From positions 72,738,335 to 72,802,334 of the forward strand of contig CM054178.1 of NCBI GenBank assembly GCA_028829895.1: a stretch of 64,000 nucleotides of DNA. The letters run 5' to 3'. The position numbers and the translations under genes were made by a program. This DNA is from Sinotaia quadrata. Lineage: Eukaryota; Mollusca; Gastropoda; Architaenioglossa; Viviparidae. Of this stretch, positions 32,201 through 48,632 are shown in pieces (the first letter of the stretch is position 1; each line of letters opens with the position of its first letter). The notes below the pieces were generated by a model, which did not search any database, had not been told where the DNA came from, and saw only the letters and a list, made by a program, of their open reading frames with translations.

Positions 32201-35200
32201 TCCAGAAACAGCTTGCTGATGTTTCATTAGATAATTCAGTGTGTGACATTCGAATATAATAGTGTTACAATTGTTTAAAATCTATTAGTAACAATTCATG
32301 TCACCAAATCCAGAAATAGCTTGCTGGTGTAGTTTACTAGATAATTGAAAGTCGAAGAAGAAAATGTTACAGTCATTTAAAATCTACTGGTAATAATTCA
32401 TGTTAACATCCAGAAATAGCTTGCTGGTGTAGTTTACTAGATAATTGAAAGTCGAAGAAGAAAATGTTACAGTCATTTAAAATCTACTGGTAATAATTCA
32501 TGTTAACATCCAGAAATAGCTTGCTGGAGTAGTTTCATTAGATAATTCATTGTGAGATATTCGAAAATAATAGTGTTACACTCTTTTAAAATATAATGGT
32601 AACTATTAATGTCACCAAGTCCATAAATAACTTGCTGAAGAACTTTCACTAGATAATTCAAAGTGTCGAAGATAAAAATGTTACAGTCCTTAAATCTAAT
32701 GGTAACAGTTCATGTTACCATCCAGAAATAACCTGCTGAAGTAGTTTTATTAGATAACTCAGAGTGTGGTAGATTTGTCAAAGATAATAGTGTTACAATC
32801 ATTTAAAATCTACTGGTAATAATTCATGTTAACATCCAGAAATAGCTTGGTGGAGTAGTTTCACTAGATAACTCGATGTATAGGAGATCTGTCATATATA
32901 ATAGTGTTACAGTCCTTAGTAACTGTTCATGTTACTATCCAAAATAACTTGCTGGAGTAGTTTCACTAGATACTCGTTTCATTGATGGTGTTGCTGGAGA
33001 TCTCCTATACGAGAATTGTCCTCGCAGGATGCCATTTTACCAAATTACCAGCAATATCTAACTTATTAGTAGGTCTGTCTTCAGAAACAAAATCTTTAGA
33101 ATAGAGCATTCCTGGTAGAATCAAAATGGGTTTAAATTTTCCTGTTTTCAAATCTTACAGGTTGACTATTCTATCCGATGGATAAACAACTCCTATTTAA
33201 TTGTGATTTGCGAGAAGTGACAAGTTGTACAACAAGATGTCCTAATAAGCATTTCTCTAAGTTTCGGTTTAAAAAATTATTACTCATAGAAAAAGCACAA
33301 AATTCACTTTTGTTTCCTTCGAAGTCTTTTAATGACGATTTGGAACCTTTGGCTTCTTGAAGATATTGAGACACTTTACTGTAATAATATTCCATGTCTC
33401 TCTTTTCTTTTCTGACTTTCCACAACTACAGTCACAACTACAAATATAGGGTTATCATATTCTATGTCTCACTTTTCCTTTTTGACTTTATCAAGTACAG
33501 TCACAACTACCAATGCACGACGATTTTGGGTGTACAGTGCAGGATATGGTTGTACCCTTCGGCTACCTTTGGTATCGTCGTTGTGACAACGTTTGCACGT
33601 GCACTAAGGATGGCTTTAACTGCACAAAGCCATGTCCCGGACCCTTATGGGGCGTGGAAAATGACCATATTTGTGGCAAGGTTTGTGTGGCAAAGCGTGT
33701 TTGGAAGGTGTTTGTGGCATGGAGTGTGTAGCAAGGTGTGTTTGTGTGTGTGTGTGTGTGTGTGTGTGTGAGTGAGTGTGTGTGTGTGTGTGTATGTGTG
33801 TGTGTGTGTGTGAAAATATGTGTGACTAAGCGTGTGTGGAAGGTGTGTGTGGCAATGCGTGTTTAGCAATGTATATGGCAAGACTTATGGTTCCAGATAC
33901 ACGAACAGACGTACACGCTCTCTCTCACACACAAATTCAAGCAGGAATATTAACTCTGAATCATCCAAGTTCACAAGTGCACACTCTTACACACGCCCAT
34001 TCATTTTTTGTATGCACTCACAATCATTGACATATACATTTCTCTCTTTCTCAAACACGCCCAGGCACATGTACACTGTCTCAAGCATGCATAATCATTA
34101 ACTTGTACACTGTCTGAAGCATGCATAATCATTAACTTGTACACTGTCTGAAGCATGCATAATCATTAACTTGTACACTTCTCTCGTTTTCAAATTCGCA
34201 AGCACAATAAGTGGCTTACTCACTTCTCTCTTGCTCAAACGTGCACGTATCGTCACATAATATACACACTTCACTTTTTCTCTAACACGCACACACATAG
34301 GCCTACAGGCACAATAACACTTCTCTCATCTTCAAGCAAGTACACATACACTCATTTATCCACAAGTACGCTTTCTCTACCACATAATATTCATGTGCAC
34401 AGGGGGAGGTGAAATGCTCTACAACTCTCTTGCAAGATATGCAAAACTTCCTCTATTTCTATCAGGAAAAGACAACTTAATTTAAACAACTTTTCGCCGT
34501 GAGGTTCGGGGTCAACCATGACCTACTGTTAATCACACTGTTTCGTTGTTTCATCTAACGAAGAACACATAAGATAATCATACCTGTTGATCACGTCGTC
34601 GTGTTTGTGCGTGTGTTTGAGTATGCAGGTGTATATGATTTTCTGTTTATGTGTATCAATGGGTGTTAGTATAAGTGTATATGTAATAGTTTGTGTGTGT
34701 GGATGCGCAGATTAATGTTGGTCTGATAGGAGAGGAAGAATACGCGTGTTTTCTCTTCTTTACAGATAAATGGTGTTTATGTAAACACGTCGTTTGCTGT
34801 TTGCTCATCTAGTCACAATTTGTAATGTTATCTTCTCTTTCTCGCGGTTTCACGTGAAGTGGTCGGCAGACGGCTGTTGTTGCGAGGCGATCGGATGTCC
34901 AGGACCAAACGGTGCTGTCATTAAAATGGGCAAAGATATACCCAAAGACCCCAATCGTCCATGCGAAACCTGCACTTGTTTGGGTGGAGAGTCAAAGAGG
35001 TGTGGGTATGAAGTATGCCCAATTGACCTCTGTTATGAGCCTTTAAAACGAGAACCTGGGGAATGCTGCGGCAAGTGCCTTATAGGTTGGTAATTGGTTG
35101 AATTCCCTCATACTTTGCCCTAATTAAAGAAGCATGTGGTTAAGGTCTCTTGGTAGAATTCTCTTTCTTGAATTTAAGACAATTTGTCATTTAGTCAGAA

Positions 35201-47400: not shown

Positions 47401-48632
47401 TACACTTCTCTCTTTCTCAAACACGCACGTACAATCATACACTTCTCTCTTTCTCAAACACGCACGTACAATCATACACTTCTCTCTTTCTCAAACACGC
47501 ACGTACAATCATACACTTCTCTCTTTCTCAAACACGCACGTACAATCATACACTTCTCTCTTTCTCAAACACGCACGTACAATCATACACTTCACTCTTT
47601 CTCAAACACGCACGTACAATCATACACTTCACTCTTTCTCAAACACGCACGCACAATCATACACTTCACTCTTTCTCAAACACGCACACACAATCATACA
47701 CTTCACTCTTTCTCAAACACTCACGCACAATCATTTACTTTTCTCTTGATCATACACATCAGTCACATACACACTTCTCTTTTTCTCAAACACGCACACA
47801 AACCCGCATTTATCCACAAGTATACACACGCTCTCTCTCTCTCTCTCTCTCTCTCTCTCTCTCTCTCTCTCTCTCTCTCTCTCTCTCTCTCTCACACACA
47901 CACACACACACACACAAACACTCGCAATATTCGTGTGCACAGAGGGAGGTGAAAATGCTGTACAACAGGCAAATGTCTTGCAAGATATGCAAAACTCCTA
48001 TTTCTACTTTCAAGAAAAGATAGCTTCTGTGTATTAAAACAACTTTCAGCTGTGAAGTCCTGGGTCAATCGTAACCATATGTTGATCACAGACTGTTTCA
48101 TTTGTGTGTGCATGTGTGTGCATTTGCAAGTGTATATGCTATTGTGTATGTGTTTGTCAATGAGTGTGAGTAATAATCTGTGTGTGCGTGTCAGTGGATG
48201 TGAGTATAAGCGTATGTGTAATACTGTGTGTGGGGGGGCTGGGGTGGGGTGTGTGTGTACGCGCTACTCCATGTTCATGTGTTAGGAGATGGCGAACACA
48301 CTTTTAAAAATTTTCTTTACAGATAAATAGTGTTTATTTAAAAATATCGTTTGCTGTTTGCTTGTCACACAATTTTTAAAGTTATCTTTTCTTTCTCGCG
48401 GTTTCACGTGAAGTGGTCGGCAGACGGCTGCTGTTGCGAGGTGATCGGATGTCCAGGACCAAACGGTGCTGTCATTGCTTTGGACGCAGATATACCGAGA
48501 GACCCCAAAAATCCTTGCGAAACTTGTACTTGTTTGGGTGGAGAGGGAAAGAGGTGTGGGTATGAAATATGCCCAATCTGCTTGAAGCCTTTAAAACCAG
48601 AACCTGGGGTATGCTGCGGCAAGTGCCCTTGA
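41333..48632 (+). CDS. Gene 3: secreted two-VWC-domain protein (3 exons, 159 aa)
   Basis: Exons are 41333-41413, 44626-44805 and 48414-48632 with TGA, 480 nt in all, phases 0 and 0. Signal peptide, first VWC half and complete VWC domain are as in gene 2, with 20 cysteines in the same order. Exon 3 has a 2-residue deletion before its seventh VWC cysteine. The exon 3 donor of gene 2 (tag|gttggt) is changed to gag|gatgct here, so translation stops right after CCGKCP. The downstream phase-1 terminal exon (50368-50396) and its poly(A) signal are still present but cannot be reached from that donor. The acceptor before exon 1 is 'gtttaag' rather than 'gtttcag'. Confidence 0.7.
42299..42621. repeat. 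46-bp minisatellite, seven near-identical copies
   Basis: The unit 'cataactttaatgctgttat' plus 'aaagtattttaaaagtatcg' plus 'ctttct' is repeated without visible divergence. The gene 1 and gene 2 blocks hold a single related unit at the same place (about 15250 and 29970), so the array arose after duplication. Confidence 0.95.
42961..43215. repeat. (CA)n then (GATA)n microsatellites
   Basis: These are CA repeats followed by GATA repeats with GATG and GACA variants, in intron 1 of gene 3. Confidence 0.97.
43500..44035. repeat. ~100-bp tandem satellite, gene 3 block
   Basis: This is the same unit as 32040-32990 with about five or six copies. Confidence 0.87.
44449..44645 (+). repeat. 69-bp tandem repeat copying the exon 2 acceptor, three units
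   Basis: Each unit has 'ccatgtctctcttttctttt', 'tgactttca', an AG ('cgtacag', 'agtatag', 'agtatag') and then 'tcacan' like the first bases of exon 2. Only the last AG (44624-44625) leads into the open exon. The earlier ones meet an in-frame TAG. Gene 2 has two such units (33391-33510). Confidence 0.85.
44626..44805 (+). CDS. Gene 3 exon 2: first VWC half (7 Cys)
   Basis: This is a 180-nt exon from 'caagtatag' to 'ggcaag|gtgtgt', phase 0 to 0. It contains YGCVLEDMIVPFGYTWNRRC, NNTCTCTENGEKC, CPGPFGG and NYCGK. The length equals that of gene 2. The Met at 44659 sometimes taken as a start is internal to the exon. Confidence 0.83.
44806..44930. repeat. 30-bp minisatellite starting at the exon 2 donor
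   Basis: Four to five units of 'gtgtgtggtatgttgtatgt' plus 'ggcaaggagt' begin exactly at the donor GT. The 'ggcaag' in each unit matches the last bases of exon 2. Confidence 0.9.
44967..45068. repeat. (TG)n microsatellite
   Basis: A pure TG tract with one TA. Confidence 0.97.
45069..46735 (+). other. Extra intron 2 sequence of gene 3
   Basis: The gene 2 intron lacks this part. It has no exon of the VWC family. A short protein-like fragment (46162-46269) and a 46-bp tandem pair near 45740-45795 ('atgttgtgtaatgttatttt') are the only structures seen. Confidence 0.5.
46162..46269 (+). other. Short coding-like fragment in intron 2 of gene 3
   Basis: Thirty-five codons (DAKVHYSDVTSYVDQLARTF, ending LLVCELPEGLLR) run to TAA. 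In the same frame after the stop come LMMKDKWASYKL and DQKFVLQSIKTFKDRM, split by another stop. The composition is protein-like and I do not recognise the family. It may be a decayed gene or mobile-element fragment. Confidence 0.25.
46740..47135. repeat. Imperfect 'gtgtgtggcaagg' repeats with donor-like sites
   Basis: Degenerate units resemble the exon 2/intron 2 junction. At 47094-47119 two units are perfect donors, GGCAAG|GTGAGT. Antisense open frames here are repeat artefacts. Confidence 0.85.
47179..47280. repeat. (TC)n(AC)n compound microsatellite
   Basis: TC tract then CA tract. A second one lies at 47828-47916. Confidence 0.96.
47365..47790. repeat. 37-bp minisatellite, about ten copies
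   Basis: The unit is 'acaatcatacacttctctct' plus 'ttctcaaacacgcacgt'. Being open in all frames, it creates a 228-codon ORF that is not a gene. The gene 2 block has only a few degenerate units (34020-34330). Confidence 0.93.
47828..47916. repeat. (TC)n(AC)n compound microsatellite
   Basis: CT tract followed by CA tract, about 500 bp before exon 3 of gene 3. Confidence 0.96.
48414..48632 (+). CDS. Gene 3 exon 3: CCC segment, complete VWC domain, stop
   Basis: After 'gtttcacgtgaag' it reads WSADGCCCEVIGCPGPNGAV, later CETCTCLGGE, RCGYEIC, CPIC and VCCGKCP, then TGA. Cysteine order is as in genes 1 and 2. Compared with gene 2 exon 3, about 15 codons differ in meaning and about 6 are silent, plus a 6-nt deletion. 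Confidence 0.84.
   Translation, partial: WSADGCCCEVIGCPGPNGAVIALDADIPRDPKNPCETCTCLGGEGKRCGYEICPICLKPLKPEPGVCCGKCP

Follow-up and report, generated by a model that had tools for sequence, protein, structure and literature searches.

Exon and intron divergence in a tandem cluster of cysteine-rich genes of Sinotaia quadrata: probable selection in one gene pair, mosaic noncoding DNA in another

We analyzed a 64,000-nucleotide stretch of the genome of the gastropod Sinotaia quadrata (the window; assembly GCA_028829895.1, contig CM054178.1, here C2:72738335-72802334), which carries on its + strand a tandem array of genes for predicted cysteine-rich proteins: unit 0, gene 1, gene 2 and gene 3. Exons for the mature proteins can differ more between these paralogs than the surrounding noncoding DNA. 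The replacement excess makes a strong case in the pair unit 0/gene 1, and it is weaker in genes 2/3, where the contrast is largely due to mosaic noncoding divergence. On balance, and with moderate confidence, we favor positive selection for new protein variants in the one pair unit 0/gene 1, acting on a fixed cysteine frame, together with mosaic gene conversion or module swapping. Replacements would accumulate under positive selection in the mature exons of unit 0 and gene 1 while the cysteine frame stays fixed. A second process, gene conversion or module swapping, would keep noncoding blocks far more alike than the adjoining mature exons; the blocks affected may be, in units 0 to 3, the module of promoter and signal exon and, in genes 2/3, the stretch before exon 2. 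This process would probably exaggerate the contrast in genes 2/3 and could account for that between gene 1 and genes 2/3. We infer selection and conversion each as a likely cause.

Gene models are predictions that combine open frames, homology and GT/AG ends, with splicing deduced from the DNA. Unit 0 has exons 3-5 inside the window, and its exons 1 and 2 were fetched from DNA upstream of it. Gene 1 consists of five exons (14411-24840), and genes 2 and 3 span 29120-35093 and 41333-48632, respectively. A further copy, gene -1, lies ~14-16 kb upstream of the window. Its exons 2-4 and an exon-5-like stretch were located, and similarity searches of the 24 kb upstream with the known signal exon and 5' module revealed neither an exon 1 nor such a module. 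Whole-genome searches covered the 984-Mb genome (26 contigs), and their match counts for large families are lower bounds.

Unit 0 and gene 1

Unit 0 and gene 1 are the most alike pair. Counting the part of unit 0 that lies upstream of the window, their noncoding DNA differs at 283 of 10,432 sites (2.7%), whereas 53 of 476 sites differ in exons 2-4, about four times as many per site (odds 4.5, p 2e-16). By exon, the differences are 3/81 (exon 1), 25/168 (exon 2), 16/174 (exon 3), 12/134 (exon 4) and 0/48 (exon 5). The divergence is thus 9-15% in each of exons 2, 3 and 4, whereas the signal and last exons together differ at only 3 of 129 sites, less than exons 2-4 (p 0.001). A preliminary description of this DNA had noticed the inversion in exons 3 and 4 of this pair; it is in fact stronger than was stated there. 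Among 166 noncoding windows of 60 bp, none reaches the mean of exon 2, and seven reach the means of exons 3 and 4.

We compared 155 codons of exons 2-4, leaving out the break codons, the stretch of exon 3 that unit 0 lacks, and exons 1 and 5. They hold 33 replacements and five silent-only codons, and none of the 19 cysteines is changed. When noncoding rates are matched for composition by base and CpG context, 9.25 replacement differences are expected; 43.5 are observed, 4.7 times as many (P 1e-16). Pure silent codons are at the noncoding level (5 versus 3.16 expected, P 0.21). The NG86 method yields a replacement divergence (dN) of 0.130, a silent divergence (dS) of 0.079 and a ratio of 1.64.

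Changes were assigned to lineages using gene -1 as a third sequence. The unit 0 lineage carries 30 replacement (N) changes on 365 N sites and 4 silent (S) changes, with 11 changes at 1,331 noncoding sites (N versus noncoding, p 1e-12). Gene 1 shows a smaller excess (13 N, 3 S; noncoding 14/1,331) and gene -1 none (15 N, 7 S; noncoding 75/1,331). On the unit 0 branch dN/dS is 2.87 (two-sided p 0.052), rising to 3.27 (p 0.027) once cysteine codons are removed. At the new edge that follows the missing 3' end of unit 0 exon 3 (3202-3400), we also noted a splice-donor-like sequence.

Genes 2 and 3 and the 5' module

The preliminary description had stressed genes 2 and 3, and its counts made by eye are close to ours. 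In exon 2 (33501-33680 versus 44626-44805), 26 of 60 residues are changed with five silent-only codons, much as it had reported; for exon 3 (34860-35093 versus 48414-48632) it gave about 15 replacement and about 6 silent codons, and we counted 15 and 7 in 72 aligned codons. Gene 3 exon 3 lacks two internal codons of gene 2 and has a shorter tail. All 20 cysteines are retained, as had been noted, with a chance of 0.0003 given 41 replacements in 132 codons, and so are the G-Y-x-W and CTC motifs. Exon 1 shows no difference over 81 sites. With composition-matched rates from a third set of noncoding blocks (~2,980 sites), replacement differences in exon 2 exceed expectation (35.9 versus 18.1, P 1e-4), and those in exon 3 do not (20.5 versus 21.6). 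Pure silent codons of both exons number 12 against 12.8 expected, and path-averaged silent changes 17.6 (P 0.10). By NG86, dN/dS is 0.88 in exon 2, 0.73 in exon 3 and 0.83 in both. Formal dN/dS estimates without cysteine codons are 1.26 and 1.6 (p 0.16).

The noncoding DNA of this pair is a mosaic. It differs at 313 of 2,850 sites (11.0%) in seven selected blocks that exclude intron 2 and the splice-site repeats, and at 757 of 5,700 (13.3%) along a BLAST chain that includes intron 2 and intergenic DNA. Divergence ranges from 2.2% in 411 bp of intron 1 (32977-33387) to 26-28% in two intron 2 blocks, the 3' part of intron 2 being 26% different, the level of exon 2. This divergence is overdispersed (variance over mean 2.9), and less so in unit 0/gene 1 (1.6). 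The statement that the DNA just upstream of exon 2 differs by a few percent applies to the 411-bp stretch (9/411) and does not extend to the 112 aligned sites between it and exon 2, of which 19 differ, or to the other blocks, which differ by 6% to 28%. Silent sites of exon 2 also lie far above the 411-bp block (p 2e-7); therefore, this block is itself the outlier, and one unusually similar stretch produces much of the genes 2/3 contrast. The exon 2 replacement excess taken alone is only suggestive, since equal divergence is found in 7 of 87 noncoding windows. In both genes, the 3' splice site and the start of exon 2 are tandemly repeated in a 69-bp unit (three copies in gene 3, about two in gene 2), which would provide several possible acceptor sites.

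A different picture emerges when gene 1 is compared with genes 2/3. Around the signal exon, genes 1 and 2 align over about 2.1 kb of noncoding DNA, in which 118 of 2,080 sites differ (5.7%). A shorter 5' block that is common to the three genes and includes exon 1 differs by 5.1% (55/1,072) between genes 1 and 2, by 11.0% between genes 1 and 3 and by 10.8% between genes 2 and 3. In the mature exons, silent sites of gene 1 versus genes 2/3 are saturated or nearly so (dS at least 1.4). Between gene 1 and genes 2/3, dN/dS is ~0.5 or less; exon 3 has a dN of ~0.4-0.5 and a dN/dS far below 1 (p 2e-5 or less). Exon 3 is thus under long-term constraint, which supports these frames being coding. Because silent sites are near saturation and dN/dS is so low, the inversion between gene 1 and genes 2/3 is not due to selection. 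It is likely that the 5' modules were homogenized by gene conversion, or swapped, after the mature exons had split, since a block differing by 5% stands beside near-saturated silent sites and 2 kb of intron and flank are unlikely to have evolved slowly. A three-gene site-pattern test (p 2e-26) was rejected as a sign of tree conflict, as three or four copies reveal unequal distances only. Upstream of the signal exon, a ~300-bp segment is inverted between genes 1 and 2 (13508-13803 versus 28590-28295, 88% identical). The signal exon of gene 1 (14411-14491) differs from that of gene 2 at four sites, all of them amino acid-changing.

Selection weighed against its alternatives

Several results weigh against selection in unit 0/gene 1. 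Tests built on codons only are marginal: GY94 gives a dN/dS of 2.13 for the pair (p 0.067), and the difference in branch ratio (omega) between unit 0 and the other branches is not significant (p 0.10; 0.26 without cysteine codons). Path-averaged silent counts are raised (7.5 versus 3.2 expected, P 0.016), as are S sites compared with a 6,403-site noncoding set (p 0.009) and S changes on the unit 0 branch compared with noncoding DNA (p 0.017). Raised path-averaged counts would fit exons that are older than their flanks. The gene -1/gene 1 pair has no excess (43/530 versus 154/2,160, p 0.46), and the lineage that changes fastest, unit 0, is the one whose exon 3 is broken in this assembly. In genes 2/3, 7 of 87 noncoding windows match the divergence of exon 2, and dN/dS is near 1, with GY94 estimates of 1.2 for exon 2 (p 0.67), 1.0 for exon 3 and 1.13 for both (p 0.70); across these tests p ranges from 0.67 to 0.98, none significantly above 1. 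The preliminary description had proposed a codon-model check in which a ratio below 1, with exon silent divergence at or above that of introns, would speak against diversifying selection. The NG86 value for the two exons together, 0.83, puts genes 2/3 on that side, and GY94 leaves them borderline. Its suggestion of diversifying selection is supported in unit 0/gene 1 by the 4.7-fold replacements and a branch dN/dS of 2.9-3.3; the case is weaker in genes 2/3, where the excess is confined to exon 2 and dN/dS is not significantly above 1.

The strongest rival holds that conversion homogenized the introns and that selection merely shielded the exons from it, leaving islands of divergence with no faster replacement. 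The primate red/green opsin pair resembles the cluster in this respect, having exon divergence above that of conversion-homogenized introns, and the published signature (PMC3924837) is likewise an exon divergence peak flanked by low introns. The 5' module indicates that conversion or swapping does occur within the cluster, and both the path-averaged silent excess in unit 0/gene 1 and the silent divergence of genes 2/3 exon 2 relative to its preceding 411-bp block would follow from shielding. Without a gap filter, noncoding DNA within 200 bp of mature exons is more divergent in unit 0/gene 1 (4.45% versus 2.55%), gene -1/gene 1 (9.8% versus 4.7%) and gene -1/unit 0 (8.3% versus 5.3%); in genes 2/3 no such rise is seen within 200 bp (p 0.20), but one appears within 300 bp (18% versus 13%). 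In unit 0/gene 1, the only pair to which the filter was applied, this spill-over disappears once gap-adjacent sites and simple repeats are removed (20/713 versus 222/8,939, p 0.62). The opsins are explained by shielding around exon 5 (PMC3924837), while in the cluster pure silent codons match noncoding DNA (5 versus 3.2 in unit 0/gene 1; 12 versus 12.8 in genes 2/3) and the spill-over of unit 0/gene 1 is not robust. If real, the branch dN/dS of unit 0 requires more than shielding. We regard shielding as a rather unlikely explanation.

The other alternatives fare much worse. Relaxed constraint, with unit 0 as a drifting pseudogene, is very improbable: exon 3 of unit 0 does have a broken frame and a missing end, which the preliminary description did not mention, yet drift should not exceed the noncoding rate, and replacements in unit 0 are already well above it, at about ten times that of noncoding DNA on the same branch (0.082 versus 0.008 per site), with no cysteine residue changed. 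Exon-targeted mutation, the other cause put forward in the preliminary description, is disfavored and scarcely credible. A mutator would explain why divergence peaks sit on exons 2-4 and why adjacent double changes exceed chance in exon 3 of unit 0/gene 1 (4 versus 1.1, p 0.014) and in exons 2 and 3 of genes 2/3 (p 0.03 and 0.004), but one intron block of genes 2/3 has the same excess (p 0.0005), exons 1 and 5 are not raised, pure silent changes occur at the noncoding rate, though the path-averaged ones are raised, and again every cysteine is kept. Pasting of short mature-exon stretches from a more divergent paralog, to which the clustering of changes in exon 3 of unit 0/gene 1 might point (11 of 13 replacement differences lie in its second piece, with no silent one there), is equally hard to credit, as a donor should have brought silent changes and whole-genome protein searches, whose counts are lower bounds, revealed no further close copy: exon 2 places are all in the cluster, and extra exon 3 places are distant.

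Positive selection in unit 0/gene 1 combined with conversion or swapping suggests a broader picture, which we offer tentatively and hold to be doubtful in its full form: a "fixed address, changing payload," in which a promoter/signal-peptide cassette is passed among paralogs with silent-saturated mature exons, and new copies have their mature exons rewritten at almost five times the pace of introns, with the cysteine frame untouched. If this were true, a single locus would yield new secreted proteins through recombination and selection acting together. The internal ruler of noncoding DNA, more than 10 kb long, makes the claim of selection testable. By-eye counts can favor the weaker pair: the pair stressed first is largely mosaic, and the other is the strong one. 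If selection holds, the target of these proteins, be it prey, mate or microbe, would be worth finding; a role in venom, in reproduction or in immunity is possible in each case.

Family features and related systems

The predicted protein starts with a putative signal peptide. Exon 2 encodes a short domain containing seven cysteines and exon 3 one containing 13, and in gene 1 two more small exons follow. The family proteins are predicted to be secreted. The joined gene 2 and gene 3 proteins matched a single Pfam family, VWC (PF00093), with a best score of 23.5 bits for gene 2 (E 7e-5), below the curated cut-off of 27.6 bits. Three of five single pieces match VWC (21.7, 19.6 and 16.4 bits), gene 2 exon 2 alone matches TILa instead, also below its cut-off, and gene 1 exons 3-5 have no Pfam match. 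All VWC scores (14-23.5 bits) stay under the cut-off, although the C-x-C and C-C-x-x-C pattern that marks VWC domains is present in the alignments. The nearest solved structure is the VWC domain of collagen IIA (5nir, 1u5m; E 0.03), which shares this cysteine spacing. Structure models of exons 2 and 3 (mean predicted local distance difference test, pLDDT, 53 and 61) are too weak to place the variable residues.

Whole-genome searches placed gene 1 exon 2 at five or more sites and the 5' module core at four, every one within the cluster. Gene 2 exon 3 returned at least eight match rows at seven places: five are genes 2, 3, 1, -1 and unit 0, one more row is a second one for unit 0, and both matches outside these genes are distant. 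One of them is a diverged exon-3-like frame ~45 kb upstream of the window (L018, C2:72693699-72693923), and the other a weak match on C2 near 24.9 Mb (E 0.3). Among ~5.8 billion proteins no relative was found at E up to 1, within the sensitivity of the tool (gene 2 query, 1 candidate; genes 1-3 alignment, 297 candidates), and literature searches turned up no paper on this cysteine-rich family. The family is unnamed and apparently narrow. Venom PLA2 and conotoxin superfamilies combine a conserved signal part and fixed cysteines with a variable mature part. The layout of the cluster is alike, with a role in venom no more than a possibility.

The kind of pattern is already known from snake small serum protein (SSP) genes and from opsins (PMC6609765 and PMC3924837), and the family itself had no match in the protein collection searched. 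An unnamed family of predicted secreted proteins joins those whose exons diverge more than their introns. According to PMC6609765, the SSP genes of Protobothrops flavoviridis form a tandem array of ~30 kb encoding small secreted proteins, with truncated members. Close SSP pairs have replacement-to-silent ratios (KA/KS) of 1.74 and 1.54 and intron divergences of 0.065 and 0.049, and other pairs range from 0.63 to 1.01. The cluster shares the tandem array, the small proteins predicted to be secreted, the close pairs with replacement excess and low intron divergence, and the truncated members. It differs in that SSPs belong to another protein family and have known binding partners, and no 5' module common to silent-saturated members appears in the text of PMC6609765 that was read. 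As in close SSP pairs, replacements exceed noncoding divergence in unit 0/gene 1 and in genes 2/3 exon 2, but not in genes 2/3 exon 3 or in gene -1/gene 1 overall. The signal exon (0/81 in genes 2/3, 3/81 in unit 0/gene 1) and the cysteine frame are conserved, with no cysteine changed.

Table 1. Features of the cluster, in window coordinates
Feature	Coordinates	Strand	Remarks
Unit 0 exon 3	3202..3377	+	frame broken ~3283-3289; 3' part missing relative to gene 1; 16/174 aligned sites differ from gene 1
Unit 0 exon 4	3687..3820	+	versus gene 1: 8 replacements, 2 silent, 44 codons
Unit 0 exon 5	4210..4257	+	identical to gene 1 (0/48)
Gene 1 5' module (promoter side, signal exon, intron 1 start)	13059..15675	+	similar to 27754-30391; 118/2,080 noncoding sites differ from gene 2
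Gene 1 exon 1, predicted signal peptide	14411..14491	+	
Gene 1 exon 2	16001..16168	+	
Gene 1 exon 3 (VWC-like)	23308..23533	+	
Gene 1 exon 4	24152..24285	+	
Gene 1 exon 5 with stop	24793..24840	+	
Gene 2 5' module	27754..30391	+	28900-29300: 4 genome matches
Gene 2 exon 1, predicted signal peptide	29120..29200	+	identical to gene 3 over 81 bp
Intron 1 stretch, genes 2/3 2.2% different	32977..33387	+	9/411 versus 304/2,439 in other chosen blocks, p 1.5e-12
Repeated 3' splice-site region before gene 2 exon 2	33388..33500	+	19/112 sites differ
Gene 2 exon 2	33501..33680	+	
Gene 2 exon 3 with stop (VWC-like)	34860..35093	+	
Gene 3 exon 1, predicted signal peptide	41333..41413	+	
Three 69-bp repeats, each with 3' splice-site-like sequence, before gene 3 exon 2	44432..44639	+	
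Gene 3 exon 2	44626..44805	+	
Gene 3 exon 3 with stop (VWC-like)	48414..48632	+	

Scans of the window with Rfam (gathering threshold) and for tRNAs gave no match. Intron 1 of gene 3 contains a 46-bp unit repeated 7.1 times at 99% identity (42302-42626). Open frames at 9387-11246 encode a Spin-doc zinc finger and a hAT dimerization domain, both above the Pfam cut-off, and resemble a hAT-type transposon.

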